A DNA stretch of 37,471 nucleotides, from assembly GCA_040757775.1 (NCBI GenBank), contig JBFLWQ010000028.1, forward strand, positions 1 to 37,471. Reading direction: 5' to 3'. Below, one piece after another: positions 1,281-31,269 of this stretch; position 1 is the stretch's first letter, and each line of letters starts with the position of its first letter. The translations under genes were made by a program, and so were the position numbers. The notes under the pieces were generated by a model. That model did no database searches. It was not told the DNA's origin and saw nothing but the letters and a program-made list of their open reading frames with translations. Source of the DNA: Thermodesulfobacteriota bacterium. Lineage in GTDB: Bacteria; Desulfobacterota; UBA8473.

Positions 1281-1402
1281 CTGAGGAAGTCCAAACCAAA
1301 ATAAACCGGCTTTTAGATAAAAAGAATTGCTATGCTGAGTTTGAGCTGGGTTGAAAACAATTTTTTTCGGCTTATCGTAACTAACGGAGGTTGAATATAA
1401 AA

Positions 1403-2608: not shown

Positions 2609-2633
2609 GGACTATGTTATTTAGGGGACCCTG

Positions 2634-2817: not shown

Positions 2818-2907
2818 AGAAAGTCAGAGTAGTTATTACATATCTACGAAAGGAGAAACCAATAAAAGATATCAACTGTTTTATTTAACGAAGGAGGAGG
2901 AACGATT

Positions 2908-4116: not shown

Positions 4117-4269
4117 AGTTTACAGGGATAAGGGAAAAAACACGACATTTTCGATTAGCAAATATAATTTTAAAAATTGCCCCTGCAAGTGATAGGGGTG
4201 AACTGAGAATAACTCATTGAATGTTTTTCGTATTGCGGTACCTGTAATTTTTTGAAAGGAGGGAATACC

Positions 4270-8162: not shown

Positions 8163-8211
8163 TTATTAATATCAAAATGTAATTATAGCAATTAATGGAG
8201 AGAAAAGAACT

Positions 8212-8982: not shown

Positions 8983-9135
8983 ATAACTACGACTTGTTAC
9001 TTAGAGCCAGTCTCAAGTTTCTCCAACTGGTTATAAAGATTCAAATTTTGCTCAGCTTCTAGAGTTCTGTTTTAGTAACCCTACTAATTAACAATACCAA
9101 CAGCTTAAAACTTATATACAATATTGGGAGGAAAA

Positions 9136-9711: not shown

Positions 9712-9830
9712 GGTGCCCGGTTTAAGCTGAGGATTGGTAGGAAGGATAGTTATCAATCAAATTGGTGATGAAGTGTTTAATAAATGGGAATTACCTACCG
9801 GTTACGATTCTTAAGATGGAGGAAATTATC

Positions 9831-11054
9831 ATGAAAAGAAAGATTCTTGCAGGGAATCATTTATTGGCAGTGATATTCCTTTTGGTACTATCCTTGACGT
9901 TGCTCCTAGGACGTTCTTTTGCTAATGCGGAAGAAGTGAGAGGGGTAAGCGATGATAACGTGAAGCTTGGTATTATTGCAGATCAAACAGGTGGTGCAGC
10001 CACTGCGACTGTCCCCTTGACAAAAGGGGCAAGGATGTACTTCAGACATATCAATGATATGGGTGGAATTAACGGTAGGAAGGTAGAGATTATTCTTGAG
10101 GATGATCGTTATACTATCCCTGGTTCATTTGCTGCTTTTAAAAAACTGCTCTTTAGAGACAGAGTTCTATCCATTCTTCTCTGCGGAGGAACAGGTCAGA
10201 CATTGGCCCTTATGCAGCAGATTGAGAAATATAAGGTTCCTGTATTACCCTGGAGCCTTGCAGACAAAATGACAATACCATTAAGGAGATACATATTTAC
10301 TATAACAGCAAGTTACGACGATGGCCTAAAGATCATTATAGATTATATCATGAAAGATATGAAGGCTGGAAATCCAAGGATAAGCTATGTTTATCCAGAT
10401 GTTGAGTTTGGCAAAACCGGTTTGGAAACTGTTGAACAATACCTCCCCAAATACAATTTAAGATTAACAAGTAAAATCGTCCTTGGTATAGGTGCTATTG
10501 AAGCTACTTCAGAGGTGTTAAACCTGGATAGACAGAAGATAGACTATATAATCTTTAATAACGGGGGTACGGCCGCTGTTGCCTTTCTAAAAACCGCAAA
10601 GCAATATGGGTTGAAAAGCAAAGTCATTGGAGCTTTCTATGCCGGGACTGAGGATGTTCTGTCAGGTGGTCGTGAAAATGCTAAAGATCTTATTGTAATA
10701 AGCCCCTTCTCCTATTGGTATGAGGATCCTCCAGGAATGATTGAGCTGAGAAAAATTGCGAAGAACTACGAGCTAGACCCAAAACAAAATAACAGAAGCT
10801 TCATTCAAGGTTGGATAACCTCTATGATCTGCGCAGAGGGTTTGAGAAGAGCGGGGAGAAATTTAACCCCAGAATCTTTAATCCAAGCTTATGAAACCTT
10901 TCAAAACTTTGGCACGGGTGGGCTTTCGCAGCCTGTCAATTATAGTAAAACCGATCACAAGGGTGGAAAGGCTTTTAAAATGTACAAAACTGACGTTAAA
11001 AAAGAGGTTTTTATACCCATTACTGACTTTAGAGAACCTGCTTTTAAAGATTGA
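9831..11054 (+). CDS. Branched-chain amino acid-type ABC substrate-binding protein (SBP 3)
   Basis: 407 residues from the ATG at 9831, which has GGAGGA at 9818-9823; an in-frame ATG at 9762 would add 23 residues before a complete signal peptide and is unlikely. The leader M-K-R-K with a long hydrophobic core ends at A-N-A-E-E, a type I cleavage pattern without lipobox. Landmarks: R-G-V-S-D-D-N-V-K-L-G, D-Q-T-G-G, N-D-M-G-G-I-N-G-R-K-V, E-D-D-R-Y-T-I-P, and F-G-T-G-G-L-S-Q-P-V near the end, slightly divergent from the D-T-G-G box of the paralogues. It follows the oxidoreductase operon by 119 bp and precedes SBP 4 on the same strand. Confidence 0.87.
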   Translation: MKRKILAGNHLLAVIFLLVLSLTLLLGRSFANAEEVRGVSDDNVKLGIIADQTGGAATATVPLTKGARMYFRHINDMGGINGRKVEIILEDDRYTIPGSFAAFKKLLFRDRVLSILLCGGTGQTLALMQQIEKYKVPVLPWSLADKMTIPLRRYIFTITASYDDGLKIIIDYIMKDMKAGNPRISYVYPDVEFGKTGLETVEQYLPKYNLRLTSKIVLGIGAIEATSEVLNLDRQKIDYIIFNNGGTAAVAFLKTAKQYGLKSKVIGAFYAGTEDVLSGGRENAKDLIVISPFSYWYEDPPGMIELRKIAKNYELDPKQNNRSFIQGWITSMICAEGLRRAGRNLTPESLIQAYETFQNFGTGGLSQPVNYSKTDHKGGKAFKMYKTDVKKEVFIPITDFREPAFKD

Positions 11055-11136
11055 GATGTGGCTTGAATCTCGGGAACAGGGGAGATCAAAAGATAAATCT
11101 GTTCATTTTATCATGTATCTATGAAAGGAGAGAACC

Positions 11137-12342
11137 ATGAAAAGATTGTCGATCGTTTTCTTCGGACTGGTAGTGATCTGTCTTTTATTTCTAGGTGTAG
11201 TAAGATTGGGTTATACGGAAGGAATACGAGGGGTAACTAATGATACCGTAAGAGTCGGGCTTTCATTAGACCTGACTGGTCCTACGTCTACTGTCCAGCG
11301 ACCTATACTTGAGGCAGTAAAGAACTTCTTTAGTTACGTGAATGACCAGGGTGGTATTAATGGGAGAAGGGTGAAATTAATAGCGGAAGATGACAGGTAT
11401 TCAATACCCGTTGATATGGCGGTCTTTAAGAAGTTCGTCTTCAGGGATGAAGCCCTGGGTCTTATTCTGGTCTTGCAGGAGGCATCTATTAACGCGATTC
11501 TCCCGCAGATAACCAAGCATAAGGTTCCGGGTGTAATCCTTTCAATGAACGAAGGCGCCGTAATTCCGACGAAACGATATCTCTTTCAACCTGTAGCCAG
11601 TTATAGGGATCAGATCAAGGTTCTGTTTGATTATATAATGAAAGACCTGAAGGCAAAAAACCCAAGGATAGCATTTATTGCTCCTGATAATTCTTATGGT
11701 AAGGACGGGTACGCTGCGGCTCAAGAGAGCGCCAAACATTATGGTCTTCAGATAGTTGACAGGGAGTTTCTTTCTCCTGGGGCAATAGAAGCAGTATCCC
11801 AGGTCCTCCTTATGAAAAAGGCAAACCCGGACTTTGTTGTTTCCCATAACTATGTCGATAATTCTATTGCATTACTTCGCGATGCCAGAAAGATGAAATT
11901 TTCTGTACCCATTTTGGGAGGCGCCGGTTCGTGTAGTGATGACCTCGTTAAGATAGCTGGCAAGGCGGCAGAGAATTTTATTGGTGGTTCCCCAACAGTT
12001 ACCTGGCATACCAATACAGAGGGTATAAAAAAGATGAGAGAAGTTCATAAGAAGTATTCTCCTGGAACAGAGGATACCCCCCGCACTCAGATCCATATAC
12101 TCGGGTGGATTACTGCCATGGTCTTTGCAGAAGGTTTAAGGCAAGCCGGAGCAAACTTGACCCCGGATAGTTTTGTGGATGCCCTGGAAACCCTTAAAGA
12201 CTTCAAGACCGGAGATCTATCTGCTCCCGTTACCTTTGGACCGGACAAACATAAGGGTGGAGAATCTTCAATGGTATTCAAGGCAGATATAGAAAAAGAA
12301 AGGCTTGTAACCCTCACGGGGTGGAGAAAACCAAGCTTTTGA
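11137..12342 (+). CDS. Branched-chain amino acid-type ABC substrate-binding protein (SBP 4)
   Basis: 401 residues behind AAAGGAGAG and an ATG. Signal peptide M-K-R-L-S with a hydrophobic core to about residue 27. The mature protein keeps R-G-V-T-N-D-T-V-R-V-G, D-L-T-G-P, N-D-Q-G-G-I-N-G-R-R-V and E-D-D-R-Y-S-I-P. Where most copies have S-(S/P/Q)-W-Y it has T-V-T-W-H, and the C-terminal box reads F-K-T-G-D-L-S-A-P-V, so its binding pocket is probably different. It ends the + strand run; the next gene is convergent (126 bp gap, no clear terminator). Confidence 0.87.
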   Translation: MKRLSIVFFGLVVICLLFLGVVRLGYTEGIRGVTNDTVRVGLSLDLTGPTSTVQRPILEAVKNFFSYVNDQGGINGRRVKLIAEDDRYSIPVDMAVFKKFVFRDEALGLILVLQEASINAILPQITKHKVPGVILSMNEGAVIPTKRYLFQPVASYRDQIKVLFDYIMKDLKAKNPRIAFIAPDNSYGKDGYAAAQESAKHYGLQIVDREFLSPGAIEAVSQVLLMKKANPDFVVSHNYVDNSIALLRDARKMKFSVPILGGAGSCSDDLVKIAGKAAENFIGGSPTVTWHTNTEGIKKMREVHKKYSPGTEDTPRTQIHILGWITAMVFAEGLRQAGANLTPDSFVDALETLKDFKTGDLSAPVTFGPDKHKGGESSMVFKADIEKERLVTLTGWRKPSF

Positions 12343-15885: not shown

Positions 15886-17082
15886 TTATTCTGAAAATTT
15901 TCTCCATCCTGTTATTGGAACAAACCTTTCTTTTTCCAAGTCTGCCTTTACGAATATCATAAACCCTGCTCCCTTGTGACTTTTGGAACTAAAACTAACT
16001 GGTCCGCTTATACCTCCCGTATCGAAGTCCTTAATTGATTCAAGGGCAGCTATATAGGTTTCTACATTCAAGTTCTTTCCTGCTCTCTCCATACCCTCTG
16101 CGGCGATCATCCCTGCAACCCAACCCCAGCAATAATGCCTGTTGGGTTCTTTTTTACCTGGCTGAAACTTTAGAGTCATCTCTCTCATTTTTTTTATCCC
16201 CGGAGTGTCATCATACCACGACATGAATCCCCATGTACCGATGATATTTTTGGAAGCAGATTTTGCCATTTCTACAACTACATCAGGACAGGAAGCGTCT
16301 CCTGCCAGAAAGGTAGGGAAGTATCCCAATTTTTTTGAAGAATTATACACGGCTATCGATGCTGGAGCGCCATGGAGCGTGAGGACATAATTCGCCTTTG
16401 ATTTTCTTAAGTTCATTGCTTCAGTGCCCGCATCTATGAGGGTCATGGGAAGAAGTTCAATATCCAGAAGCTTCAACCCGTACTTCTTGAGCCTCTCTGT
16501 GGAAGCCTCTATAGCTCTTTTACCCCATACCGTATCTCCTGTCGCTATCGCAAACCGTGCATCTTTTTCCTTCAGGTCTTTCATAACATAATCAATCAAC
16601 ATTACCATCTGATCTCCATAATCCAGGTTATGAGTGAAAACATACTTTCTGAAGGGGGTTGTCATGGTAAGCATACCACTATATGTAATTGTGGGAAGCT
16701 TGTTCTTTTCGATTTGATCGAGGAGGGCGGTCGTCTGAGGGCTTGCTAATCCTATCTCAGCAAATATTTTATCCTTAAAGACCAACTTCTTGAACGCAGC
16801 AAAAGCCATTGGTATTGAATACCTGTCGTCTTCAACTAGAACCCTTACCTTTCTCCCTTTGATTCCACCTTTATCATTGATATACCTGAAATAATTCCTG
16901 ACTCCTATTGCATAGGGGGTAAGGTTGTCACAAACTGGTCCTGTCATGTCCATTATTGTTCCTATCTTGATTGTATCATCTGTAACACCCCTGACCTCTT
17001 CTGCCCGGCTGTCAAAATTATTGAGAAATAAGATACTTACTAATAGCATAACTACCGAAATCAACTTCATACCCATTTTCAT
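15886..17082 (-). CDS. Branched-chain amino acid-type ABC substrate-binding protein (SBP 5)
   Basis: 398 residues from the ATG at 17082, with GGGAGA six bases upstream; an in-frame start at 17127 would put 15 polar residues before the signal peptide. Leader M-K-M-G-M-K with a hydrophobic core ends near S-R-A-E-E. Landmarks R-G-V-T-D-D-T-I-K-I-G, D-M-T-G-P, N-D-K-G-G-I-K-G-R-K-V, E-D-D-R-Y-S-I-P, S-W-Y-D-D-T-P-G and F-D-T-G-G-I-S-G-P-V are all kept. It is the last gene of the - strand run and follows SBP 6 after about 110 bp. Confidence 0.88.
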   Translation of the reverse strand: MKMGMKLISVVMLLVSILFLNNFDSRAEEVRGVTDDTIKIGTIMDMTGPVCDNLTPYAIGVRNYFRYINDKGGIKGRKVRVLVEDDRYSIPMAFAAFKKLVFKDKIFAEIGLASPQTTALLDQIEKNKLPTITYSGMLTMTTPFRKYVFTHNLDYGDQMVMLIDYVMKDLKEKDARFAIATGDTVWGKRAIEASTERLKKYGLKLLDIELLPMTLIDAGTEAMNLRKSKANYVLTLHGAPASIAVYNSSKKLGYFPTFLAGDASCPDVVVEMAKSASKNIIGTWGFMSWYDDTPGIKKMREMTLKFQPGKKEPNRHYCWGWVAGMIAAEGMERAGKNLNVETYIAALESIKDFDTGGISGPVSFSSKSHKGAGFMIFVKADLEKERFVPITGWRKFSE

Positions 17083-17193
17083 CTTCAATCTCCCTTCTGC
17101 TAATAATACCTCATAGAATTGCACCATTGAAAATTTGAATTTATGCGTTTTAAGCTTCCCTCCATATACTTATCTTTTAAAGGATTAACCAGT

Positions 17194-18396
17194 TTATTCT
17201 GATTTCCTCCACTCCGTTATAGGCACATATTTTTGTTTAACAGGGTCTGACCTGTAAATCCTCCAGGAGTCTCCCCCCTTATGACTGGCAGAGGTGTAGG
17301 TAATGGGGTTGCAAAGCCCACCAGTATCAAAATTCTTCAACGTTTCAAGGGCATCCACCAAGGTTTCTGCATCTAGATTTTTCCCTGCTCTTTTCATTCC
17401 TTCTACAAGGACAGTGGCAAGTACCCATCCATGAGTGTATAAAGTGCCGCGATAAGGCTTTTCAGTACCCGGATGGTACTTAAGGGTGATTCCCCTCATT
17501 GATTTTACCCCTGAACCTTCGCCATACCAGGGAGCAAGGGCATGAACTGAATAGAATTGCTTTGCTGTTTCACCCAATGTGTGTATCTCTTCTCCCAGCA
17601 TTGCACCCCAGCTATGAAAGGCTGGTGTTTCCAATCCAAACTTCCTCATCTCCCGTAAGAAAGTCATTGCTGAAGCGGTAATGAGTCCTACATGAATTAC
17701 ACAATTGACATTGTTTTTCTTTAAACTCATAACCTGTGAGCTGGCATCTATTGCACCAGCCATCATGACCTCCTTTGTCACAGGTTCTATGTTGTACCCT
17801 TTCAACCTTTCCAGGGCAGGTCTCAGATCAATCTTTCCGGTTTCAGTGTCCGGATAAACAAGAGCTATCCTTGGGTTTTTCAGTTTATACTCTTTGACTA
17901 TATAATCAACAAGGACTCTTACTTGCCCCTCATAGGTATCGCTTGTGGTAAAAATATATCTCTTTAAAGGGTTCACAGCAAGATCGGGAAACACAACAGA
18001 TACGTTTGGAAGTTTGTCTTGTTGAATCTTTCTCCAGAGTATGTTGACAAAACCTCCTGAACCAGGTCCTATAAAAGAAAATATCCTGTCCCTGAAAACC
18101 AGTTTTTTATAAGCTGCAAGGGTAGCGGGAATTGAGTATCTGTCGTCCTCTACAATTACATCCAGTTGTCTTCCATGAACACCGCCATTATCATTAATGT
18201 ACCTTATGTATGTTCTTATTGCTTGTGTGCAGGGAACAGTTATTGCCGCAGCAGGTCCTGTTTGATCCAGAATGACACCTATTTTGACCGACTTATCCGT
18301 TACTCCCCTGACATCCTTTGCCTGACCAACAGAGGCATTTATTAAAAAAACAATTCCCAATAATGCGGCTGCTACAAATACTTTCTTTACATTCAT
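17194..18396 (-). CDS. Branched-chain amino acid-type ABC substrate-binding protein (SBP 6)
   Basis: 400 residues from the ATG at 18396, 7 bp after AAAGGAG (18404-18410); a TTG at 18402 is too close to that site. The signal peptide ends S-V-G-Q-A-K-D and closely resembles that of SBP 1 at the other end of the region, and both continue with R-G-V-T-D and I-L-D-Q-T-G-P, suggesting a closer pair. Mature landmarks include N-D-N-G-G-V-H-G-R-Q-L, E-D-D-R-Y-S-I-P, A-P-W-Y-G and F-D-T-G-G-L-C-N-P-I, the last diverging from the common box. It follows the FolC gene at about 195 bp. Confidence 0.88.
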   Translation of the reverse strand: MNVKKVFVAAALLGIVFLINASVGQAKDVRGVTDKSVKIGVILDQTGPAAAITVPCTQAIRTYIRYINDNGGVHGRQLDVIVEDDRYSIPATLAAYKKLVFRDRIFSFIGPGSGGFVNILWRKIQQDKLPNVSVVFPDLAVNPLKRYIFTTSDTYEGQVRVLVDYIVKEYKLKNPRIALVYPDTETGKIDLRPALERLKGYNIEPVTKEVMMAGAIDASSQVMSLKKNNVNCVIHVGLITASAMTFLREMRKFGLETPAFHSWGAMLGEEIHTLGETAKQFYSVHALAPWYGEGSGVKSMRGITLKYHPGTEKPYRGTLYTHGWVLATVLVEGMKRAGKNLDAETLVDALETLKNFDTGGLCNPITYTSASHKGGDSWRIYRSDPVKQKYVPITEWRKSE

Positions 18397-18591
18397 ACCC
18401 AAACTCCTTTCTTTTTATTAGTCTTTGATTATATTAAATTCTATAAGAGTTCTTATTTACCCTTCATAGGTATCTCAGACAATAAGCATGTATTCTTTAT
18501 GGAGTGTAACGGCGATTTAAACTATAACCCACCAAAAAGTCAATAAAAAAAAAATCAAACAGAGAGAAACATATAAGTTAGCAGGTTAAAG

Positions 18592-19952: not shown

Positions 19953-21104
19953 TTAATTTTTTAACAACGATCTGGCAATAACCATTTTTTGAATATTGCT
20001 GGGGCCTTCGTAAATCTGAATGCCTTTTGCATCTCTCATCATTCTTTCAACAGGATGGTCCTTGGTATAACCATGACCACCAAGTATCTCAACTGCCTCT
20101 GTAGTTACTTTCATTGCAACCTTTGTTGCAAGGTACTTTGCCATAGAAGCAAATCTGGGTATCAGTTCAATCTCTCTCCCCTTATCAATCATATGGGCTG
20201 CCCTGTATACCATGCACCTTGCCGCTTCTATATGGGTCAACATATCAGCAAATTGAAACTGAATGCCCTGAAATTCGGTTATGGGCTTTCCAAAGCAGAT
20301 TCTCTCCTTTGCATAGTTCAGGGAATAATCAAAGGCACTCTGGGCAACACCCACCGCCTCTATAGCCATAAGCACCCTTGCCTGATTGAACACTCCTACT
20401 ACGATTTTAAAGCCCTGCCCTTCAGGGCCTAAACGATTTTTCTCCGGAACAACAGCATCCTCAAATATGAGTTCTGTCATCGCAGTACCCCTCTGCCCCA
20501 TCTCGTTCTCATGCTTGCCTATGGAAAATCCCGGCGTATCCTTTTCCACTACAAAGGCAGAGATGCCACTGTGTTTCTTTTCCGGGTTTGTTAAAGCGAA
20601 TAGAGAAAAGAAATCGGCTACACCACCCAGAGTTATAAAGCACTTGGTTCCATTAACCAGATAATTGTTACCGTTCAATTTTGCCCTGGTTTTCATGGAA
20701 GCCGCATCTGAACCAGCCTCGGGCTCTGTAACAGAAAGGCATCCAAGTTTCTTCTTACCGATTATCTGCGGAAAATACCAGCCTTTCTGCTCTTTAGTGC
20801 CTGCCTCTCTCATAACCAGTATTCCACCTATTGTTTGGACCATAAACATTGTTGATACTGAAAGGGATGCCCTCGCAATCTCTTCTGCTGCTACACACAA
20901 AGTGACAATGCCGCTGCCTGAGCCACCGTACTCCTCAGGTACTGCCATATTGAGAATTCCCTGTTTCCTGAGGAGGTCAACCATATCCCAGGGAAACTCA
21001 TCAGTGACATCGATCTCTGCTGCACGGGGAGCAATCCTATCCTTCGCTATCCTTCTAACACTCTCTCTCAACATATTCTGCTCTTCAGTAAGCTCAAGAG
21101 TCAT
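19953..21104 (-). CDS. Acyl-CoA dehydrogenase (ACAD 1)
   Basis: 383 residues from the ATG at 21104, six bases after AAGGAGGG; a TTG at 21110 directly abuts that site. The FAD/substrate signatures are S-V-T-E-P-E-A-G-S-D and G-T-K-C-F-I-T-L-G-G-V-A-D, and the C-terminal I-Y-E-G-P-S-N-I-Q-K holds the catalytic base Glu as in short-chain enzymes. It oxidises an acyl-CoA to a 2-enoyl-CoA, passing electrons to electron-transfer flavoprotein or a related acceptor; neither is encoded here. It lies downstream of mutase A on the same strand, separated by a 145-bp MITE-like element, and may oxidise the mutase product. Confidence 0.92.
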   Translation of the reverse strand: MTLELTEEQNMLRESVRRIAKDRIAPRAAEIDVTDEFPWDMVDLLRKQGILNMAVPEEYGGSGSGIVTLCVAAEEIARASLSVSTMFMVQTIGGILVMREAGTKEQKGWYFPQIIGKKKLGCLSVTEPEAGSDAASMKTRAKLNGNNYLVNGTKCFITLGGVADFFSLFALTNPEKKHSGISAFVVEKDTPGFSIGKHENEMGQRGTAMTELIFEDAVVPEKNRLGPEGQGFKIVVGVFNQARVLMAIEAVGVAQSAFDYSLNYAKERICFGKPITEFQGIQFQFADMLTHIEAARCMVYRAAHMIDKGREIELIPRFASMAKYLATKVAMKVTTEAVEILGGHGYTKDHPVERMMRDAKGIQIYEGPSNIQKMVIARSLLKN

Positions 21105-21168
21105 TAACAACCCTCCTTAAAATTTTCAATGTATCGAAATCTGGAAGATCAAGTTTGGACGATATTAA

Positions 21169-21365: not shown

Positions 21366-23054
21366 TTAATACGGAGACTTCATTATACCAAAGGGATCAT
21401 AGCTCAATCCATAGGCTTCCCGTATGGTTCCCTGTATCTCTCCTGTTGTAGCGTATGCCTTCAATGCCTCAATTATGGGGGGGATAAGATTTTCGCCCTC
21501 TCCCATCTGAGCTTTTTCCCTCAAGCGCTTTATAGTCTCTTTTACCTTTTTCCGGTCACGAGTCTCTTTAAGGCTTTTAACATTGGCTATCTGTTCCCTC
21601 TCTGTTTCAGGTGGAATCCTGTGTACACCCCCGGGGGTTCTTTCTTCAGAAGCGGTTGTAAAGGCGTTTACACCTACTATAATCCGCTCTTTATTCTCTA
21701 TTTCCTTCTGTAGTTGAAGGGCAGCATGGTCTATCTTCTGGTCTACCCACTCCTTCCTCATAGCCTCTGCCATTCCACCTATCTCATCTATTTCTTTGAT
21801 TATTTTTACGGCCTCTTCCTCAAGTTTATTCGTGAGGTTTTCTATAAAATACGACCCGCCCAATGGATCTGCGGTGTTTGCCACTCCGGTCTCGTAAGCC
21901 AGAATCTGTTGGGTTCTCAAAGCTATACGCTGAGACTCTTCGGAAGGAAGAGCTATGGGTTCATCGTAAGAGCAACAATGGAGAGATTGGACCCCACCCA
22001 GTACAGCAGCCAGAGCTTCAACAGTAATCCTTATAATATTATTTAAAGGCTGCTGCGGCACCAGGGAAGAGCCGGCGGTATGAACACCGAATCTAAACTT
22101 CCAGGAACCAGGCTTCTTTGCCCCAAATCTCTCCTTCATAATCTTTGCCCACAACCTCCTGGCAGCTCTCAGCTTGGCTATCTCTTCAAGAAAATCCATA
22201 CCAGCCGAGAAATAAAATGATATCCTGCATGCAAAATCGTCAACATCTAAACCGCGTTCTATCGCTTTTCTTATATACTCCATTGCAATCTCAAATCCAA
22301 AGGCAATCTCCTCGGGCGCATTGATGCCAGTCTCTCTCATATCATAGGCATTCACGGAATTGGTATTCCAGAATGGCATATGTTTCGTACAGAACTCTAT
22401 TATGTCCACAGCCAATTTTACGCTGAGGTCTATCGGGTTATTTGGCTTACCATAACAGTAACGAGAGTGCAAAGGATCATTTGCGATGGTACCTCTCAAC
22501 TTTGCAATATCTATACCTCTTTTTTCTGCAACTGTTATATACTGGGAAAATATAACGGCGGCAAGGGATGAAGCACAGAGAAGGGCAACACTGACCTTAT
22601 CAAGGGGTATTCCATCTAACAGTTCCTCCATATCCTTCAATGAGGTAAGGTTTACCCCGCTCACTCCAACCTCACCTTCAGCCATAGGGTGGTCTGCATC
22701 GATTCCCCAGACGGTCGGAAGATCCCGGAAGATGCTGAAGCCGCTTACTCCCTCATCTGCTAGAAACTTAAGCCTTTTATTGGTATCGGCTGCCCTGGCG
22801 TATCCACCAGCTTCCCGCATCGTCCAGTATCTGCCTCTGTACATATTCGAATGGATACCCCTTGTAAAGGGGTACTTTCCTGCGTTGGCTATCTTTCCTT
22901 CGTAGTCAATTCCTGCTACATCAGCAGGAGTATAGATATCCTTGACCGGAAATCCTGACCATGTAGTTAATCTATTTGGCTTATCGAAATATGCTTCCAT
23001 TAAACCATCTATCTTCCTATCCTCTCTTTTTTGAACCTTTACTGAATCACTCAC
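21366..23054 (-). CDS. B12-dependent acyl-CoA mutase large subunit A, noncanonical active site
   Basis: 562 residues, the size of the methylmalonyl-CoA mutase catalytic (TIM barrel) subunit without a B12 domain. Family words are clear: Y-P-F-T-R-G-I, L-R-A-A-R-R-L-W-A-K-I-M, Q-S-L-H, D-E-P-I-A-L-P and D-P-L-G-G-S-Y-F-(I/V)-E. By hand alignment with the Propionibacterium enzyme, Tyr89 is Ala82, Gln197 is Ala191, Arg207 is Tyr201 and His244 is Asp238. These residues contact the substrate or protect the radical, so the substrate is unlikely to be methylmalonyl-CoA. The start is GTG at 23054 with GGAGGT six bases upstream. It must use a separate cobalamin subunit, most likely the one encoded 130 bp upstream (23185-23568). 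The 23055-23184 spacer holds short imperfect repeats of GCTGA and AC(G/T)G type. Confidence 0.9.
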   Translation of the reverse strand: MSDSVKVQKREDRKIDGLMEAYFDKPNRLTTWSGFPVKDIYTPADVAGIDYEGKIANAGKYPFTRGIHSNMYRGRYWTMREAGGYARAADTNKRLKFLADEGVSGFSIFRDLPTVWGIDADHPMAEGEVGVSGVNLTSLKDMEELLDGIPLDKVSVALLCASSLAAVIFSQYITVAEKRGIDIAKLRGTIANDPLHSRYCYGKPNNPIDLSVKLAVDIIEFCTKHMPFWNTNSVNAYDMRETGINAPEEIAFGFEIAMEYIRKAIERGLDVDDFACRISFYFSAGMDFLEEIAKLRAARRLWAKIMKERFGAKKPGSWKFRFGVHTAGSSLVPQQPLNNIIRITVEALAAVLGGVQSLHCCSYDEPIALPSEESQRIALRTQQILAYETGVANTADPLGGSYFIENLTNKLEEEAVKIIKEIDEIGGMAEAMRKEWVDQKIDHAALQLQKEIENKERIIVGVNAFTTASEERTPGGVHRIPPETEREQIANVKSLKETRDRKKVKETIKRLREKAQMGEGENLIPPIIEALKAYATTGEIQGTIREAYGLSYDPFGIMKSPY

Positions 23055-23184: not shown

Positions 23185-23568
23185 TTATTTTATCATAAAA
23201 TCAACTATATCATCCAATGGGCTCCCGGATCCAAATACCTCTTGTACTCCCATCTTCTTCAAGTCAGAGACATCTTCAAGAGGTATACACCCACCTACAA
23301 CGACTGTCAAGTCATCTCTACCCTTCTCTCTCAAAAGCTTCATTATTTTTGGTGCCTCCACCAGGTGTGTGGACGAGTGAAAACTCAAACCCAATATATC
23401 CACGTCCTCTTCAACAGCAGTCTTTGTAATCTCTTCAGGTGTTACATAAATCCCTCCGTATACCACTTCTGCACCAGCGTCCTTCAATGCCCTGGCTATC
23501 AGCTTTATGCCCATGTCATGGGCATCCAGGCCAGGTTTAGCCAACAATACCCTTTTCCTTTTTTCCAT
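23185..23568 (-). CDS. Stand-alone cobalamin-binding subunit of an acyl-CoA mutase
   Basis: 127 residues: only the B12-binding domain of the methylmalonyl-CoA mutase family. The D15-x-H17-x2-G20 motif supplies the lower-axial His ligand of cobalamin; later G-L-S-F-H-S-S-T-H and V-V-V-G-G-C-I-P complete the domain. GGAGG precedes the ATG. It lies between mutase large subunits B (upstream, 23 bp) and A (downstream), so one cobalamin subunit may serve two different large subunits. Confidence 0.93.
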   Translation of the reverse strand: MEKRKRVLLAKPGLDAHDMGIKLIARALKDAGAEVVYGGIYVTPEEITKTAVEEDVDILGLSFHSSTHLVEAPKIMKLLREKGRDDLTVVVGGCIPLEDVSDLKKMGVQEVFGSGSPLDDIVDFMIK

Positions 23569-23591: not shown

Positions 23592-25295
23592 TTACACGGC
23601 TATCTGCCTGTGTCTTGCCCTGATAACCTCCCGATACGCCCTGACTTTATCCCCAAAGAGGGCATTCATAATCTCTTCAAGAGTAGCATAAGCCTTCACA
23701 GCTTCAATACTCGGTGGTACGATGTTTTCTCCCTTTTTAACCGCATCCTGGATACTTGATAAACCTGATTTTACCTTTTCATTGTCCCTTTCTGTTTTTA
23801 CCTTTTTGAGTCTGGCCAATTGCTTCCTCTCATAGGACGGATCGACTTTGAATGCCTTAACCCTTATCTCTTCCTTAATCCTGTATTTATTCAAGCCTAC
23901 AACTGTCCTTTCCCCTTTTCTTATAGCATCCCAGTAACGGTTAACCGAATCATCCATCTGCTGCTGAAGCCATCCGCTTTCTATTGCCCCCGGCATACCA
24001 CCCATGGCATCAATCTCTTCTATCAATTTTGAAGCTCTCTCCTCCAGCTGTCTGGTCAACCACTCCACAAAGTAAGAACCAGCCAGAGGGTCTATTGTAT
24101 CTGCAATACCCGTTTCTTCAAGGAGTATCTGTTGAGTCCTCAGGGAAATCCTGGCAGACTCCTCTGTAGGTATGCAGATAGCCTCATCATAAGAATCGGA
24201 ATGTAACGAGCTAACACCGCCCAGAAGAGAAGCCAGACTCTGGATAGCTACCCGGGCAATGTTGTTCAATGCCTGTTCTGCTGTCAAGGTGTTACCGTCT
24301 GTCTGAACATGAAGCCTGAGAAGCATAGCCCTGGGGTCCTTTGCCCCAAATCGTTCCTTCATTATCCTTGCCCACAGTTTCCTGGTTGCCCTGAATTTGG
24401 CTATCTCCTCGAAGAAATTGTTATGACATCCCATAAAGAACGTAAATTTGGGGGCAAATTCCTCCAATCTCAATCCCCTATCCAGAAATGCCTGTGTATA
24501 GCTAATAGCCCCTGAAAGCATAAAGGCCATCTCCTGCACGGCATCTGTTCCAGAATCACGATGGGCATAACCACCTATAGCCATCGGGTTCCAGTTAGGC
24601 ATATTCCTGGCAAGATACTCTATAATATCAACAAAATATCTGAATGCCTCTTTAGGGGCAGGAAAGATTGCCTGCTTATTTGCTACGTATGAGGTTAAAA
24701 AATCCAGCTGGCTCGTACCTCTTAACTTTGAAAGGTCTATCCCCCTCTTTTCTGCTACGGCAATTAACATGAACAACATAACAGGACATCTTGCAATAAG
24801 GGTAACCGGGTATTTGACTATATCAATTCCGTCAAAGGCATCCTCCATATCCTGCAACGTATCCACAGGCAACCCATTCATCCCCACCTGACCTTCTGCC
24901 AGAGGGTTATCTGAATCTATGGCATGGTTGTTTGTGGGAAGGTCAAAGACCACTGTTACACCAGTTTCTCCCATCTCTATAAGATATTTAAGCCTCTCAT
25001 TGGTCTCTTCAGGGGTTGCAAATCCACATACCTGCCTCGCCTGCCACGTACGACTTCGATAGCCTACAGGATATATCCCCCTGGTGAAGGGATACTCGCC
25101 AGGAAAACCCCCATCCCTCTCATAATCGAAGGCTTCAATATCTTTAGGAGTATAGAGGCGTTTTACAGGTATCTGGGAATGGGTCTCAAACAAACCCTGC
25201 CTCTCTCCCAATTTTTCTACGGCCTTTCTTTCCCTCTTTTCTTCCCATTCTTTCAGTTTTTCTTCCAGCGATTTAATTTTATCTTTGTCAAACAT
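23592..25295 (-). CDS. B12-dependent acyl-CoA mutase large subunit B, noncanonical active site
   Basis: 567 residues, methylmalonyl-CoA mutase catalytic-subunit family. Landmarks: Y-P-F-T-R-G-I-Y, V-V-F-D-L-P-T, F-R-A-T-R-K-L-W-A-R-I-M, S-S-L-H-S-D-S-Y-D-E-A and D-P-L-A-G-S-Y-F-V-E-W-L-T. Against the methylmalonyl enzyme, Tyr89 is Val89, Gln197 is kept (Gln196), Arg207 is Asn206, and the His244 position reads Ala244 with a His right after it. It thus differs both from methylmalonyl-CoA mutase and, as far as I recall, from isobutyryl-CoA mutase (Phe/Gln). A ~35-residue charged, helical N-terminus may contact the partner subunit. It is followed by the cobalamin subunit 23 bp downstream and preceded by SBP 7. 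ATG start with GGAGG upstream. Confidence 0.9.
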   Translation of the reverse strand: MFDKDKIKSLEEKLKEWEEKRERKAVEKLGERQGLFETHSQIPVKRLYTPKDIEAFDYERDGGFPGEYPFTRGIYPVGYRSRTWQARQVCGFATPEETNERLKYLIEMGETGVTVVFDLPTNNHAIDSDNPLAEGQVGMNGLPVDTLQDMEDAFDGIDIVKYPVTLIARCPVMLFMLIAVAEKRGIDLSKLRGTSQLDFLTSYVANKQAIFPAPKEAFRYFVDIIEYLARNMPNWNPMAIGGYAHRDSGTDAVQEMAFMLSGAISYTQAFLDRGLRLEEFAPKFTFFMGCHNNFFEEIAKFRATRKLWARIMKERFGAKDPRAMLLRLHVQTDGNTLTAEQALNNIARVAIQSLASLLGGVSSLHSDSYDEAICIPTEESARISLRTQQILLEETGIADTIDPLAGSYFVEWLTRQLEERASKLIEEIDAMGGMPGAIESGWLQQQMDDSVNRYWDAIRKGERTVVGLNKYRIKEEIRVKAFKVDPSYERKQLARLKKVKTERDNEKVKSGLSSIQDAVKKGENIVPPSIEAVKAYATLEEIMNALFGDKVRAYREVIRARHRQIAV

Positions 25296-25511: not shown

Positions 25512-26711
25512 TCATTCAGCCGGCTTTATCCAACCCGTAACCGCAACAAGCCTCTTCTTCTCCATGTCAGTCTTAAATATCCTGCAGTAATTAGTGGCCT
25601 TATGGGATTTGGGGGTATAGGTAACAGGACCACAGATGCCTCCGGTATCAAAGTCCCTGAGTGTCTCAAGGGCATCTACCAGCTTTTCACCATCAACTTC
25701 TCTACCCGCCCTTTTAAGCCCTTCAGATATAATCACTCCCCAATACCAAGCCATTTGATAATAATTAACCGGCGGTTTGCTTTTTGGGCGATACCTCAGG
25801 AAAGCCTCTCTCACCTTTTTCATTTCTGGAGTATCGTCATACCACTGACTAAATGCGTGAAGTCCATAGTAATTTCTAGCCGTCGCACCTGCCCTCTCTA
25901 TTGCATCTTCACCACATCCATAATGAATCCCCCAAACATTGGGGAAGTATTGAAACCTTTTACCAGTGCTCAGTATCAGAGCCACCTCTGGTGTAGGTAG
26001 AGCTCCCACTAAAACATTGTTTATCCCATTTGCCTTTAAACAAAGCACCTGGGAAGTAACATCTATCGCCCCAACAGCCACAATTTCCTCATAATACTTT
26101 TGGTTGAAAAAGCCTGCCCACTTCTTAGCACCGGCTGCAAAGACTTTCCCACCCTCGGTATCCGGTCTGGCTATCGCTATTTTTGGATCATTGACCTCCA
26201 TTTTGTTTACTATGTAGTCATAAGCCACACCAGCAAAATCCCAGTAATCTCCTGGAGGGGCGAAAACATACCGTTTATACGGAGTAAACATGATAGGGGA
26301 AATTGTTATGCCAAATGAAGGCATTTTACTCTTTTCGAACTGCGAGAACAGGGCAGTGTGCTGTCCTGTACCTCCAGGTCCTGAAATACAAAGCACCTCA
26401 TCTCTGTACGCCAGTTTCTTAAATGCTGCAATGGCCGTTGGAATACTGTATCTATCATCTTCCACAATGAGTTTTATCTTCCTCCCGTGGATACCACCCT
26501 CTTCGTTTACCAATCGAAAGTAGTCTCTGTGACTATTTGCATAGGTAACAAGAAACATTGCCACAGGACCGGTCAAATCTGTTATCAGACCGATCTTTAT
26601 CGTATCACCAGTAACCCCTCTTACCTCCCCGGCATAAGAAGGTACGCTCATAAGAATAGCCAAGACAAATACCAAAACGATCTGACTCCTCAAAAGATTT
26701 CTTTTCTCCAT
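25512..26711 (-). CDS. Branched-chain amino acid-type ABC substrate-binding protein (SBP 7)
   Basis: 399 residues from the ATG at 26711 behind AAGGAGGAG; an in-frame GTG at 26732 lies upstream of that site and is not needed. Signal peptide M-E-K-R-N ending V-P-S-Y-A-G-E. Landmarks: R-G-V-T-G-D-T-I-K-I-G, D-L-T-G-P, N-E-E-G-G-I-H-G-R-K-I, E-D-D-R-Y-S-I-P, S-Q-W-Y-D-D-T-P-E and F-D-T-G-G-I-C-G-P-V. It is the downstream member of a tandem pair with SBP 8. Differences between them fall mainly in the central region (about residues 215-240), where ligand specificity may have shifted. It sits between the CdhA-like gene and mutase B. Confidence 0.9.
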   Translation of the reverse strand: MEKRNLLRSQIVLVFVLAILMSVPSYAGEVRGVTGDTIKIGLITDLTGPVAMFLVTYANSHRDYFRLVNEEGGIHGRKIKLIVEDDRYSIPTAIAAFKKLAYRDEVLCISGPGGTGQHTALFSQFEKSKMPSFGITISPIMFTPYKRYVFAPPGDYWDFAGVAYDYIVNKMEVNDPKIAIARPDTEGGKVFAAGAKKWAGFFNQKYYEEIVAVGAIDVTSQVLCLKANGINNVLVGALPTPEVALILSTGKRFQYFPNVWGIHYGCGEDAIERAGATARNYYGLHAFSQWYDDTPEMKKVREAFLRYRPKSKPPVNYYQMAWYWGVIISEGLKRAGREVDGEKLVDALETLRDFDTGGICGPVTYTPKSHKATNYCRIFKTDMEKKRLVAVTGWIKPAE

Positions 26712-26813
26712 AGTCTCCTCCTTTTTACACACGAGTTCTATCTCCCCTTTTCTCGTGAGAATAAGTTGTCATTTCCTGGAGAATTACCATAATACAGAAA
26801 ATCAACCCTTTTC

Positions 26814-28013
26814 TCATTCAGCCGGCTTTATCCAACCGGTAACCGCAACAAGCATCTTCTTCTCCATGTCAGTCTTAAATACCTTGCAGTAATTGGTGGC
26901 TTTATGGGATTTAGAGGTATAGGTAACAGGACCACAAAGGCCTCCAGTGTCAAAGTCCCTTAGTGTCTCAAGGGCATCTACCAGCTTTTCACCATCAACT
27001 TCTCTACCTGCCCTTTTAAGCCCTTCGGATATGATTATCCCCCAGTACCAGCCCATTTGATATACGTTTATTGGCGGTTTGTTTCCAGGATGATATTTCA
27101 TAAAAATCTCTCTCATTTTTCTCATCTCTGGAGTATCATCTTGCCACATGCTAAATGCATTAATACCATAGTAATTTTTGGCCGCTTCACCTGCACTCTC
27201 TATTACCTCATCACCGCATGCATACTGAACGCCGTATATGTTTGGGGAATATTTTAATCTCCTGCAGGTCCTCAATACCAGAGAGGCTGCATCTGTAGTA
27301 TTAGCTGCAACCACAATACTATCAACACCTTCCTTCTTAAGCTTAAGTATCTGAGATGTTGCATCCATCGCCCCAACAGCCAGAATTTCCTCATAATACT
27401 TTTGGTTGTAAAAACCTGCCCACTTCTTACCACCCTCAGCAACAACTTTCCCCCCCTCCGTGTCTGGCCTGACCATGGCTATCTTCGGGTCCTTTACCTT
27501 CATCTTATTCAGTACATAATCATAAATCACACCAATAAAATCCCAGTAGTCACCGGCAGGTGTAAAGACATACCGTTTATATGGAGTATACATTACAGGA
27601 GAAATCGTTACAGCAAAAGAAGGCATTTTAGTCTTTTCAAGCTGGGAGAAGAGGGCAGTATGCTGTCCTGTTCCTCCTGGACCCGAAATGCAAAGCACAT
27701 TGTCTCTGTACACAAGCTTTTTAAAAGCAGCAAATGCCGCCGGTATACTGTATCTGTCATCTTCAATAACAAACTTTATCTTCCTCCCATGGACTCCACC
27801 ATGTTCGTTTATCCACCGGAAGTAATCCCTGTGGGCATTCGCATAGACCACAAGCATCCCAGCTGCGGGGCCAGTCATATCAGTTATCATCCCAATCTTT
27901 ATTGTATCCCCAGTTACACCCCTCACTTCCTCAGCATGCGAGGGAATACTTACCAGAAGGACCAGAACGAAAACCAAAACACTTATACGTGCTAAATGAT
28001 CTCTTTTCTTCAT
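26814..28013 (-). CDS. Branched-chain amino acid-type ABC substrate-binding protein (SBP 8)
   Basis: 399 residues from the ATG at 28013 with AAAAAGGAG upstream; a TTG at 28037 is less likely. Signal peptide M-K-K-R-D ending I-P-S-H-A-E-E. It shares nearly all landmarks with SBP 7, including S-H-K-A-T-N-Y-C near the C-terminus and V-A-V-T-G-W-I-K-P-A-E at the very end. In the middle it differs (S-I-V-V-A-A-N-T-T-D-A-A-S-L against N-V-L-V-G-A-L-P-T-P-E-V-A). It lies 42 bp downstream of the CdhA-like gene and is very likely cotranscribed with it. Confidence 0.9.
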   Translation of the reverse strand: MKKRDHLARISVLVFVLVLLVSIPSHAEEVRGVTGDTIKIGMITDMTGPAAGMLVVYANAHRDYFRWINEHGGVHGRKIKFVIEDDRYSIPAAFAAFKKLVYRDNVLCISGPGGTGQHTALFSQLEKTKMPSFAVTISPVMYTPYKRYVFTPAGDYWDFIGVIYDYVLNKMKVKDPKIAMVRPDTEGGKVVAEGGKKWAGFYNQKYYEEILAVGAMDATSQILKLKKEGVDSIVVAANTTDAASLVLRTCRRLKYSPNIYGVQYACGDEVIESAGEAAKNYYGINAFSMWQDDTPEMRKMREIFMKYHPGNKPPINVYQMGWYWGIIISEGLKRAGREVDGEKLVDALETLRDFDTGGLCGPVTYTSKSHKATNYCKVFKTDMEKKMLVAVTGWIKPAE

Positions 28014-28055
28014 GATAATTCTCCTTTTTGAGAACAAGGTTAATAAACAAACTTT

Positions 28056-30548
28056 TTACATCCTGTCTTTCCTTACCTTGTAAACCAGCCTTGGCAGGTA
28101 CGTTACATACTGGCCCGATTTAAAACCGTACTGTTCAACATAATCTTCCATAGGCAGCAGCCTGCCATCTCTATGCCTTGCTTTGATGATTCTCCCTTTT
28201 TTCGTATCTATCTCCCACCCATGCTCCTCCGCAAGTAATCGTAACAACTTAACCTTTTTCGCCGTCGGAATCTCTACCTCTTTTCTTATATACAGGTGCC
28301 AGTCGTCAGGAGGAACACCAAATTTCTTTCGATAATAATCCAAATAGAGAGCAAGTTTATTCTGCTTCGCTACCTCCATCTCCTGTACCACAAAACCCAA
28401 CTTAGGAACGAGAGCAAGGACCTCATCCACTGTCTCCACAGGCATTATCATATGCTCAGGCACCGGGTCAACTTCCCTTTTCTCACCTGTCATACCGTGT
28501 ATAGCCCACCACTTGCTTCGATCATACTTGTTACCCATAAGGTACGTCTTGAATTTGAATCCATCGGGCCCAACTATTACAGGGATGCCGGCCCTTGCAT
28601 GTCCGAGAGCCACGTTGTACATCATCTCTGAGGCAGCCCCCCATATAACCAGTGCATTTGAGAACCTCATTACACCCTCAGACTGCATAGAATAGTTAGC
28701 CCTGTATGGCGTCCTGAATCCCATGTACTCCACCTTATAATGAGTAACAGTTAACGGTTCGGATTGAGTCAGGCATCCGCCGGTATTTGCAAAACAGCGT
28801 GGATTCTGGAGGGCGGGGTAGATTTCATAGATAGATTTACCTGTCTTTTCATCCTTATATCGGGCAATCTCAGATGCTACACAGCCAGAAACGCTCACCG
28901 CATAATTATTGGAGATGAATTCATTGGCCATACGGGCCACATCCATTTCAGAACCTTTTGTACTACCACAGCCAACTATTCCAATAGTGACGGGGACGGA
29001 AAACGCCGTAATAGCCCAATCCCTTACCTCCAGGTTACTGAATGTCCCTCTCCCTGCCCTCATGACCGATTTGTCCTCTTTTATAGCCTTTTTGGAGGCA
29101 CCCAATATAAGGTCTATTATAGGAATACCCTGGGGGCAGACCTCCTCACATCTACCGCAGTAAATACTCTGGTGATGAAGTTCGCACAACTGAGAAAGGT
29201 CACCACCTGCGGCGGCTTTCAATGCTCTACTTATCTGCAAACTATTGGGACATGCCCTGAAACAGGCATCACATTCATCGCATTTTGCTGCCTGACTCTT
29301 TATATCCCCTTCCGATAAGAGATAATTTTCCTTCCTTTTTGTTTTTACCTTAAAGGCCACATTAAAGGCTACGTTAGCCGCTTTTTCTGGATCGGTAATC
29401 AAAACAGCCTGCAGACCACTCAACAGTTCATTTGCTAAATCATCAACAGTATCCGCAGACCTATCTGCCAAGCCCATGTTCTGTTTAAAACTGGTAGCGA
29501 TAACCTTTGTATCTGTTCTGGCTGCTTCTCCTATGACATCCGTCTTACAGCAGGTTTCGCTTATCACCAGGACATCGGCTATTCCCATCCTGAGAACCCG
29601 ATTGGTTTTCACAGGGGTAGTGAGGGTCTTGGCCTTATCATAGAATCTGACCAGATCATGACCAACAGATCCTATGCCACATACCTCTATCCTATCTTCC
29701 ATACCATTTTCTCTTATAAGGTTTACCAGGTTCCATGCAGGCAATAAATCGAACCCTAGAAATACTATAACCGGTTTGTTTGTATCTGCTGTTCCCATGC
29801 CTGTTTGAATGTTGACCGGCGGCCAGGATGGAAGCTCTGCAAGCTCTTTGTCCGCAGACCAGCAGAAGCCGAAAAAACTGAACTTCAAAAACTCGGTAAT
29901 ATCCATTGCCGAAAGGAGAAGTGACCCTCCATGAAGAGCCTTTGATTGCAAATCTATGGCATTGCCCTCGAATCCCCCGCTGGCAGATGCCAGAAGTTCT
30001 GTTAGCTGATCCTCTATGTAGGTTACGACCTTGTTGGCATGGCCCAAGGTCTTGGGTGTAAAACCCACTAATGCATTGACATTCATCATTCCATAGGCGA
30101 CATTTTTACCCCATCGGATCTCAGCATCTTCTCCATATTTCCTCAAACAATAATTGAGAAGGTCTCTACACGTGGACAGATGGGTAGCCAAACCCCTGCA
30201 GGAAGCCTGGAGGGACAACTTTGCCTGGTATCCCTCCAAATCTAAACCACATATCCCCCTTAGCCTATCCAGATCGCACGGTCCCAGAGGGCAGTCGTTA
30301 CAAGTTTTCTCGATATTCGTATAGATGGGTGGGTATCTGTCCAGCAAGAACCTATCGAACTCGGCAATATCTGTAGCATGGGCATAGGGTGTTAACCACA
30401 CCTTGATCTGATTCACCATGTTTTCAGACCATGTCGTTTCAATGCATTCCTTAACCAGACTTTGTACTCCTCTGATATCTCGTACTGTAGTTGTAATATC
30501 TATTTCAGTGTTTCCAACCTTAGCGATTTTCTTCTCTTCTCTTTCCAT
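28056..30548 (-). CDS. CdhA-like (ACDS alpha / CO dehydrogenase family) iron-sulfur protein with altered cluster ligands
   Basis: 830 residues. It follows the layout of the archaeal acetyl-CoA decarbonylase/synthase alpha subunit: an N-terminal cluster motif C83-x2-C86-x4-C91 and C100, a middle CODH domain (K-P-V-I-V-F-L-G-F-D-L, A-D-V-L-V-I-S-E-T-C-C-K-T-D), a ferredoxin insert with C423-x2-C426-x2-C429-x3-C433 and C464-x2-C467-x3-C471, and a C-terminal half with S-G-C556 and T-G-G-C592. Judged by hand alignment to CODHs, His206 and Cys333 ligands are kept, but the Cys of the usual I-C-C-T box is Ser294 and the last C-cluster Cys region reads His650. The second ferredoxin motif lacks its first Cys (Ser461). 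It may therefore not oxidise CO. ATG with GGAGG upstream; follows the TetR gene by 79 bp and precedes SBP 8. No CdhB-E partners are present. Confidence 0.82.
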   Translation of the reverse strand: MEREEKKIAKVGNTEIDITTTVRDIRGVQSLVKECIETTWSENMVNQIKVWLTPYAHATDIAEFDRFLLDRYPPIYTNIEKTCNDCPLGPCDLDRLRGICGLDLEGYQAKLSLQASCRGLATHLSTCRDLLNYCLRKYGEDAEIRWGKNVAYGMMNVNALVGFTPKTLGHANKVVTYIEDQLTELLASASGGFEGNAIDLQSKALHGGSLLLSAMDITEFLKFSFFGFCWSADKELAELPSWPPVNIQTGMGTADTNKPVIVFLGFDLLPAWNLVNLIRENGMEDRIEVCGIGSVGHDLVRFYDKAKTLTTPVKTNRVLRMGIADVLVISETCCKTDVIGEAARTDTKVIATSFKQNMGLADRSADTVDDLANELLSGLQAVLITDPEKAANVAFNVAFKVKTKRKENYLLSEGDIKSQAAKCDECDACFRACPNSLQISRALKAAAGGDLSQLCELHHQSIYCGRCEEVCPQGIPIIDLILGASKKAIKEDKSVMRAGRGTFSNLEVRDWAITAFSVPVTIGIVGCGSTKGSEMDVARMANEFISNNYAVSVSGCVASEIARYKDEKTGKSIYEIYPALQNPRCFANTGGCLTQSEPLTVTHYKVEYMGFRTPYRANYSMQSEGVMRFSNALVIWGAASEMMYNVALGHARAGIPVIVGPDGFKFKTYLMGNKYDRSKWWAIHGMTGEKREVDPVPEHMIMPVETVDEVLALVPKLGFVVQEMEVAKQNKLALYLDYYRKKFGVPPDDWHLYIRKEVEIPTAKKVKLLRLLAEEHGWEIDTKKGRIIKARHRDGRLLPMEDYVEQYGFKSGQYVTYLPRLVYKVRKDRM

Positions 30549-30627: not shown

Positions 30628-31269
30628 TTAAATACGACTCTGATTACGTAATAAGCCTCTCTTAACCAGATTAAAAGTGGAGACAAGAAGCTCACTTACA
30701 TCATCTTCTGGGACATTGAGATGAACTCTCATAACCGTAGTTTGAACAATACCTATAGATAACCCCCACAGAATACGGGCTATGTGGCGGGGGTCTACTT
30801 CTATGAAATCCCCTTGGTCAATACCTTTTTGGATTACCCCCCTCAAAATCTTCAGGGCCATACCTGCCTTTCTGTTGATCTCATCCGACAATTCAGGGGG
30901 TATCTTATCCATAATGTCCTCATGGAGTAAATATGCAGAGGTTTTTATATAATTAATGTCCTCTTTATAGTACCGGTAATATGAGAGAGCTAACCTATCC
31001 AGCATCTCGGCAGGTTTCAAATCCAGATCGGCTGTTTCTCTATATTTATCCAGTAAGTTATCAAGCCCCTTTATAAAAATAGACATGAATAACTCTTCTT
31101 TCGTTTTAAAATAGAGATAGATGGTCCCCTTTGCCAGCTCTACCCTCTCTGATACATCATCCACAGTTGCCTTACCAAGCCCCTTTTCAGAAATGACCTC
31201 ACATGCAGCATTTATTATATCCTGTCTTCTCTTCTGTTTTTCCTTCTCTTTTCTCTCTGCTATACCCAT
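30628..31269 (-). CDS. TetR/AcrR-family transcriptional regulator, probably acyl-CoA-responsive
   Basis: 213 residues, typical length. N-terminal basic stretch (E-R-K-E-K-E-K-Q-K-R-R), then A-A-C-E-V-I-S-E-K-G, A-T-V-D-D-V-S-E-R-V and the recognition end K-G-T-I-Y-L-Y-F-K-T-K-E-E-L-F. The ligand domain resembles FadR-type TetR regulators that sense long-chain acyl-CoA, but this assignment is tentative. AAGGAAGG precedes the ATG. It is the first gene of the - strand run and has a good promoter with an inverted repeat at the expected start site (31301-31317), so it likely represses itself and the CdhA-mutase genes behind it, and perhaps the divergent hydrolase. Confidence 0.87.
   Translation of the reverse strand: MGIAERKEKEKQKRRQDIINAACEVISEKGLGKATVDDVSERVELAKGTIYLYFKTKEELFMSIFIKGLDNLLDKYRETADLDLKPAEMLDRLALSYYRYYKEDINYIKTSAYLLHEDIMDKIPPELSDEINRKAGMALKILRGVIQKGIDQGDFIEVDPRHIARILWGLSIGIVQTTVMRVHLNVPEDDVSELLVSTFNLVKRGLLRNQSRI

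Follow-up and report, generated by a model that had tools for sequence, protein, structure and literature searches.

A probably CO-inactive CdhA homologue of a Thermodesulfobacteriota bacterium and a predicted Sec-Gly-Sec acetyl-CoA synthase homologue encoded beside a paralogue

Few enzymes in biology are regarded as better conserved than those of the Wood-Ljungdahl pathway, and clade-A CODH homologues are often taken as evidence of CO metabolism. In established CODH structures His261 and Cys295 (CooS-II numbering) are the protein ligands of the pendant Fe1 of the C cluster and, because they ligate that iron, form together with Ni the unit that binds CO2/CO. Homologues with changes at this site have been catalogued. 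In Table 2 of Inoue et al. 2019 (PMC6344411), group A-6 has no D cluster, C-site residues N, S, C, C, C, C, acid-base residues H, L and an incomplete F cluster, and group A-4 has C-site residues D, P, C, C, C, C and acid-base residues Q, R. Both groups occur in bacteria only and are associated with ACS beta (PMC6344411), and selenocysteine is not mentioned in the main text of that paper. CODH-V, with a change at position 295, lacks both the C-cluster and CODH activity (PMC10502027, PMC13240472). The selenoproteome reviews of 2022 and 2026 include a selenocysteine-containing HgcA/CdhE-type protein; ACS beta is absent from the lists of both.

We describe here a CdhA-like gene in a stretch of 37,471 nucleotides (the window), which is the entire contig C28 of a 3.1 Mb genome in 50 contigs. 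The gene and its neighbours are as follows.

30628..31269, minus strand, TetR-family regulator, 79 bp upstream of the CdhA-like gene on the same strand; one also precedes the orthologue in genome G001
28056..30548, minus strand, 830-aa open reading frame of the CdhA-like protein, W group, A-6-like within Inoue clade A (profile match, residue map, AlphaFold model)
26814..28037, minus strand, Peripla_BP_6 substrate-binding protein directly downstream (family match)
25512..26732, minus strand, Peripla_BP_6 substrate-binding protein, 72% identical to the 26814..28037 protein (family match)
23592..25295, minus strand, methylmalonyl-CoA-mutase-type large subunit (family match)
23185..23568, minus strand, B12-binding small subunit (family match)
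21366..23054, minus strand, second mutase large subunit (family match)
19953..21110, minus strand, acyl-CoA dehydrogenase, co-directional (family match)

An earlier note on this DNA had assigned the protein the layout of CdhA, the CODH/ACDS alpha subunit, and three lines of evidence agree. TIGR00314 (CdhA) matches it over nearly its full length with 570 bits (E 6e-171), below the curated equivalog cut-off of 781.3 bits. Its full-length phmmer matches among solved structures are CODH alpha subunits only: 8riu (E 9e-140), 9c0q, 31ox and 3cf4, with 8riu, 9c0q and 3cf4 at E<=1e-118. An AlphaFold model built from 26 related sequences (pLDDT 87.9, pTM 0.90) has the CdhA fold, with target-normalised TM-scores of 0.92-0.94 (about 0.93) to 9c0t, 8riu and 3cf4.

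Cluster ligands were assigned from a residue map in which 21 family members, and two members added later, were compared with bacterial CdhA and CooS in CooS-II numbering. The sites in the window protein are given below.

30249..30302, minus strand, B-cluster motif C83-C86-C91-C100, complete (residue map)
29751..29753, minus strand, F266 in place of C-cluster His261, a pendant Fe1 ligand (residue map)
29667..29669, minus strand, S294 in place of C-cluster Cys295, a pendant Fe1 ligand (residue map)
29550..29552, minus strand, C333, kept C-cluster ligand Cys333 (residue map, invariance)
29250..29282, minus strand, E-cluster ferredoxin motif C423-C426-C429-C433, complete (residue map, invariance)
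29136..29168, minus strand, F-cluster ferredoxin motif S461-C464-C467-C471, first Cys replaced by Ser (residue map)
28968..28970, minus strand, C527, kept C-cluster ligand Cys446 (residue map, invariance)
28881..28883, minus strand, C556, kept C-cluster ligand Cys476 (residue map, invariance)
28773..28775, minus strand, C592, kept C-cluster ligand Cys526, the Ni ligand in CODH (residue map, invariance)
28623..28625, minus strand, M642 in place of the acid-base Lys563 (residue map)

The six C-cluster ligands are not all conserved: four are kept (C333, C527, C556 and C592) and two are lost. The CODH alpha fold is accompanied by complete B and E clusters and an F cluster of three Cys and a Ser. 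The earlier note had also counted two changed C-cluster ligands, and it was right that a Cys has become Ser294, which aligns to Cys295, and that the second ferredoxin motif begins with Ser461 instead of Cys. Its other ligand, placed at Gly-His650, was mistaken, the true equivalent of Cys526 being the kept C592; canonical bacterial CdhA has C or F next to Gly in the His650 column, which is no ligand position, and 8riu has V there. The second loss is instead that of His261 (F266), which had been overlooked together with the replacement of Lys563 by M642, the reduction of the His relay to H123 alone and the replacement of both canonical CdhA D-cluster Cys (E80 and N84). The hybrid-cluster protein (HCP) ligand set of His and Glu is absent as well, with F in the His column and S in the Cys295/Glu column. 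On this residue map the reading as a functional CODH was rejected.

The pattern extends through the family. In 26 sequences there is no variation at C333, C527, C556 and C592, at the Cys of the E motif or at three Cys of the F motif, and the residues that replace the lost ligands vary by group (F, N or D at His261; S, A, P or N at Cys295). Throughout the f1 group neither pendant Fe1 ligand remains and most acid-base residues are gone. Every one of the 19 W, X, Y and Z members of family f1 has the F-cluster Ser; the same position is Cys in the outlying copies G005:C166 (f1), G047, G082 and G184. Values of dN/dS between window orthologues are 0.11-0.13, so the gene is under purifying selection, and the substitutions, being fixed across orthologues under this constraint, are more than chance. 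In the CdhA-like relatives of G047 and G082 (L106:2155-4890 and L156:10831-13629) the whole B-cluster motif is also gone and the Lys563 equivalent is kept; both bear an N-terminal extension, which is Cys-rich in L106.

Compared with CdhA (3cf4, 9c0q, 8riu), the window protein shares the fold, the B and E clusters and the four C-site Cys, but lacks the pendant Fe1 ligands, the acid-base Lys, the His relay and the D cluster and has Ser in the F cluster. It resembles CODH-V of Carboxydothermus and HCP in its CODH-type fold, its altered Cys295 position and the absence of the expected C-cluster; CODH-V has Glu295, whereas the window protein has Ser, has lost the His too and has no HCP-type Glu. Based upon the residue description in Table 2 (the A-6 reference sequence is OIP30420), the Y-group paralogue of the same genome is an exact match to A-6, and the A-4 pattern equals that of O_G005 and O_G184. 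The window protein differs from A-6 in having Phe rather than Asn at His261 and Met rather than Leu at Lys563, and its gene lies outside any ACS cluster; it appears to be a Phe variant of the A-6 pattern. Because they equal those of the catalogued A-6 and A-4 groups, the CdhA-like ligand changes are not new, and judged from its residues the window protein is very probably a CO-inactive CdhA homologue of known kind.

Two further paralogues are present in the same genome, X at C1:212011-214482 (67%) and Y at C9:107595-110072 (58%), and two or three matches per genome were found in all eight f1 genomes searched. Of 395 genomes of the phylum, 12 have a match at E <= 1e-125: the eight of f1, G047 and G082 (both f2), G184 (f74) and G118 (f11), the last at 34%, which is within the canonical CdhA range. 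In the tree, the family is split from canonical bacterial CdhA with support of 100/100 and groups W, X, Y and Z are resolved; the placement of long-branched outgroups is less certain. Named records of W orthologues are MAGs labelled Deltaproteobacteria, e.g. SURF_34 and CSMAG isolates. The same genome encodes separate CooS proteins and an AcsB/AcsC/AcsD cluster on C6, and the C-cluster ligands are complete in two of its three other CODH/HCP-type sequences, the third of which aligned poorly. With separate complete CooS proteins and AcsB/AcsC/AcsD on C6, CO chemistry is therefore covered elsewhere in the genome.

That substrate-binding protein and B12-mutase genes accompany the CdhA-like gene had been noted before, and they do lie downstream of it on the same strand. 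A survey of gene neighbourhoods found this set in the window's own genus only (G000, G001, G002); the link is absent in G005, where the flanks are readable, and was not seen in G006 or G007, whose contigs are short. Genes for acyl-CoA mutases, dehydrogenases, a ligase and a CoA-transferase surround the W and X copies, which suggests acyl-CoA metabolism as the setting of both. Elsewhere in the window there are a pyruvate-formate-lyase-like glycyl-radical enzyme (4252-6690), with no activase gene seen adjoining it, and then a three-gene 2-oxoacid:ferredoxin oxidoreductase (7068-9711). Eight Peripla_BP_6 proteins are encoded within the 37 kb (1391-4116, 9762-12342, 15886-18402, 25512-28037), and no matching LivHMGF permease genes were seen in the window.

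The gene had been described as without ACDS partners, a label that is misleading. It is true of the complete window contig C28, which has no CdhB, CdhC, CdhD or CdhE (no match to PF03598, PF02552 or PF03599), and no CdhB or CdhC was seen in cis at W orthologues in other genera. It is not true of the two paralogues of the same genome: outside the window, CdhB/CdhC-like genes adjoin them on C9 and C1. On C9, the gene after the Y paralogue is CdhB-like (PF02552 at 23.7 bits, against a cut-off of 21); beyond it the contig breaks off within a CdhC-like N-terminus, MVKIPEGKIYHIPEDLEEALEE..., and the complete order CdhA-like/CdhB-like/CdhC-like is found in four relatives (G003, G004, G005, G006). On C1, a TetR gene lies between the X paralogue and a divergent CdhC-like gene. 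Downstream of the CdhABC-like genes in G005 and G006 are two proteins without a family match and then three maturation-type genes, for a MoxR/ChlI-type AAA ATPase, a CooC/MinD-type ATPase with a C-Y-C motif and a ChlD/VWA protein. The two proteins in such a cluster without a Pfam or NCBIfam match are at L097:8254-9105 and L097:7730-8137, and the 283-aa L097 protein recurs in G005, G082, G184 and G402.

Clusters with Z-type or outgroup members also hold FwdB-like and FwdA-like proteins and a small CdhE-like Fe-S domain. These formylmethanofuran dehydrogenase-like proteins and the stand-alone CdhE-type domain occur at L102:5820-9124, L155:11284-12528 and L171:12282-14373, and their place beside CdhA/CdhB-like genes hints at a C1 step in the system. 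Short CdhC-like proteins in G008 (L090:9751-10533 and L092:9659-10477), apparently without the A-cluster region, are encoded near 2-hydroxyacyl-CoA dehydratase (HGD-D) homologues.

The CdhC-like gene on C1 has two in-frame TGA codons, within ...PQTS-TGA-GGG-TGA-FELLLFYIPQVDGIG....

L012:9417-10775 (C1:209416-210774), minus strand, CdhC/ACS-beta-like gene with TGA-GGG-TGA at the Cys-Gly-Cys distal-Ni motif

Both codons align to the Cys-Gly-Cys distal-Ni motif of solved ACS, as predicted Sec306 and Sec308. The partner has the same A-cluster [4Fe-4S] ligands as ACS/CdhC, with C217, C220, C229 and C239 all conserved, and also the Gly that separates the two distal-Ni ligands; it differs in having an in-frame TGA at both distal-Ni Cys. 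TGA-GGN-TGA occurs at the same site in seven genomes of two families (G000, G003, G004, G005 and G006 of f1; G184 and G402 of f74), and a Cys version of the gene is present in G047 and G082 and as a second gene in G005. G402 has a pair of paralogues, of which the TGT-GGG-TGT copy is 89% and the TGA-GGG-TGA copy 95% identical to the G184 protein. The two are at L168 / L172:7618-9063 and L167 / L171, and the Cys copy amounts to TGA changed to TGT twice. The AlphaFold model of the CdhC-like protein is poor (pLDDT 58), with an unreliable C-terminal half.

The TGA codons are followed by a hairpin stretch and candidate SECIS, ATCCCTCAGGTTGAyGGGATAGG, which folds as ATCCC-TCA-[GGT]-TGA-y-GGGAT and is shared by f1 and f74 CdhC-like proteins of 46% identity. 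Among six Sec genes, codons for invariant amino acids are identical at 7 of 10 positions in the hairpin as against 2 of 117 elsewhere (Fisher p 4.6e-8, for a region chosen post hoc and related sequences). Support for the hairpin is this conservation of synonymous sites; its pairs hardly vary and covariation was not counted, and its folding energy is not significant against shuffles (z -0.6 to -1.6). The hairpin is absent from distant Cys homologues and is retained in the recent Cys paralogue of G402. The genome has a tRNA-Sec with anticodon tca (C13:12592-12684) and SelB (357 bits), and in its FdhA a single in-frame TGA precedes a hairpin whose loop contains GGU. Reassignment of TGA was ruled out, as TGA ends 10 of the 28 window genes, and a frameshift or pseudogene origin of the split CdhC-like reading frames was ruled out by reading the DNA and by the same TGAs in relatives. 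Together these sequence features make a strong case that the CdhC-like protein is a predicted Sec-Gly-Sec acetyl-CoA synthase homologue. No selenocysteine-containing acetyl-CoA synthase was found in the open-licence literature searched, and the combination of a CdhA homologue without the CO site beside a Sec-Gly-Sec ACS-like protein was found in no open-licence paper searched. The HgcA/CdhE-type selenoprotein belongs to the corrinoid (gamma) family, in the wider CODH/ACS-related group, whereas the CdhC-like partner is of the Ni-bearing ACS beta type.

We propose, at a probability of roughly 55%, that the window protein is a CO-inactive electron-relay or scaffold subunit of a CODH/ACS-derived complex. 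CO/CO2 interconversion would have been lost along with the pendant Fe1 ligands, the His relay, the D cluster and the acid-base Lys, a loss for which inactive CODH-V is a precedent, and the C site would hold an ordinary cubane without pendant iron; with such a cubane the protein would be an Fe-S chain that passes low-potential electrons, not a CO catalyst. These electrons would pass via the B, C-site, E and F-like clusters, with the Sec-bearing Ni site of the CdhC-like protein as their putative recipient. The CdhB-like protein may still act in binding, and the Ni site of the CdhC-like protein may be matured by the CooC-like and AAA/VWA proteins. As the closest paralogues lead a CdhA-like/CdhB-like/CdhC-like operon, the protein most likely delivers electrons to, and serves as a scaffold for, the ACS-like subunit; it is gene order that suggests electron transfer to that subunit. 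The window copy would be a dispersed paralogue, located in an operon of acyl-CoA (mutase, dehydrogenase) and substrate-binding protein genes. It could work with CdhB-like and CdhC-like proteins from other loci of the genome, or for the acyl-CoA/substrate-binding protein pathway alone. More tentatively, the complex without a CO site might combine the CdhA-like relay with a Sec-Gly-Sec ACS-like protein in which two selenolates bridge the dinuclear Ni, and might carry out acyl-CoA chemistry other than making acetyl-CoA from CO.

Some points weigh against this proposal. The four conserved Cys at the C site might also house a catalytic cluster, the Ser in the F cluster may weaken the E/F wire, no CdhB or CdhC is encoded in cis at the window locus or was seen at its orthologues in other genera, and the model of the CdhC-like protein is poor. 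The earlier suggestion of a CODH-derived electron-transfer protein or a new redox protein fits the lost CO site and the kept cluster ligands, and is partly supported overall. Of its two halves, a new redox catalyst comparable to HCP or CODH-V, binding a non-CO substrate at the sites freed by His261 and Cys295, is one that we consider unlikely. Strict conservation of the four C-site Cys despite changed catalytic residues, group-specific replacements that look as if tuned, and the different Fe-S-O cluster carried by CODH-V all speak for it, but the Cys295 column has no HCP-type Glu, the acid-base Lys and His relay are lost, and a plain cubane is a simpler account of the four Cys.

A role as a redox or metabolite sensor for the substrate-binding protein-mutase operon seems very improbable: the TetR genes just upstream here and in G001 and beside paralogue X would fit it, but such genes commonly adjoin acyl-CoA operons, and the paralogues sit with structural CdhB/CdhC-like genes. 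It is very improbable that the protein is still a Ni-CODH with unusual ligands, as the placement of A-6 under the Ni-CODHs by Inoue et al. 2019 (PMC6344411) implies. The retained Ni ligand Cys526 and the CooC-like gene of related operons agree with that placement; against it stand the loss throughout f1 of both pendant Fe1 ligands and most acid-base residues, the inactivity of CODH-V with its change at 295, and the separate complete CooS proteins of the genome. Finally, the two stops that table 11 gives the CdhC-like partner could be pseudogene mutations, leaving no living complex. This is hardly credible given the recurrence of both codons in seven genomes from two families, a frame open on either side of them, frozen synonymous sites in the hairpin that follows, the 89%-identical TGT-GGG-TGT paralogue of G402, and a genome with tRNA-Sec, SelB and an FdhA with one in-frame TGA.

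Since the CO site has been lost from this entire family of CdhA homologues, a CODH annotation would mislead. The new element is the predicted Sec-Gly-Sec ACS-like partner in the paralogous operons, which among the open-licence papers searched is the first ACS homologue predicted to carry selenocysteine at the Ni site. If it is made and active, this partner would be a natural test of the role of the bridging thiolates in the A cluster.
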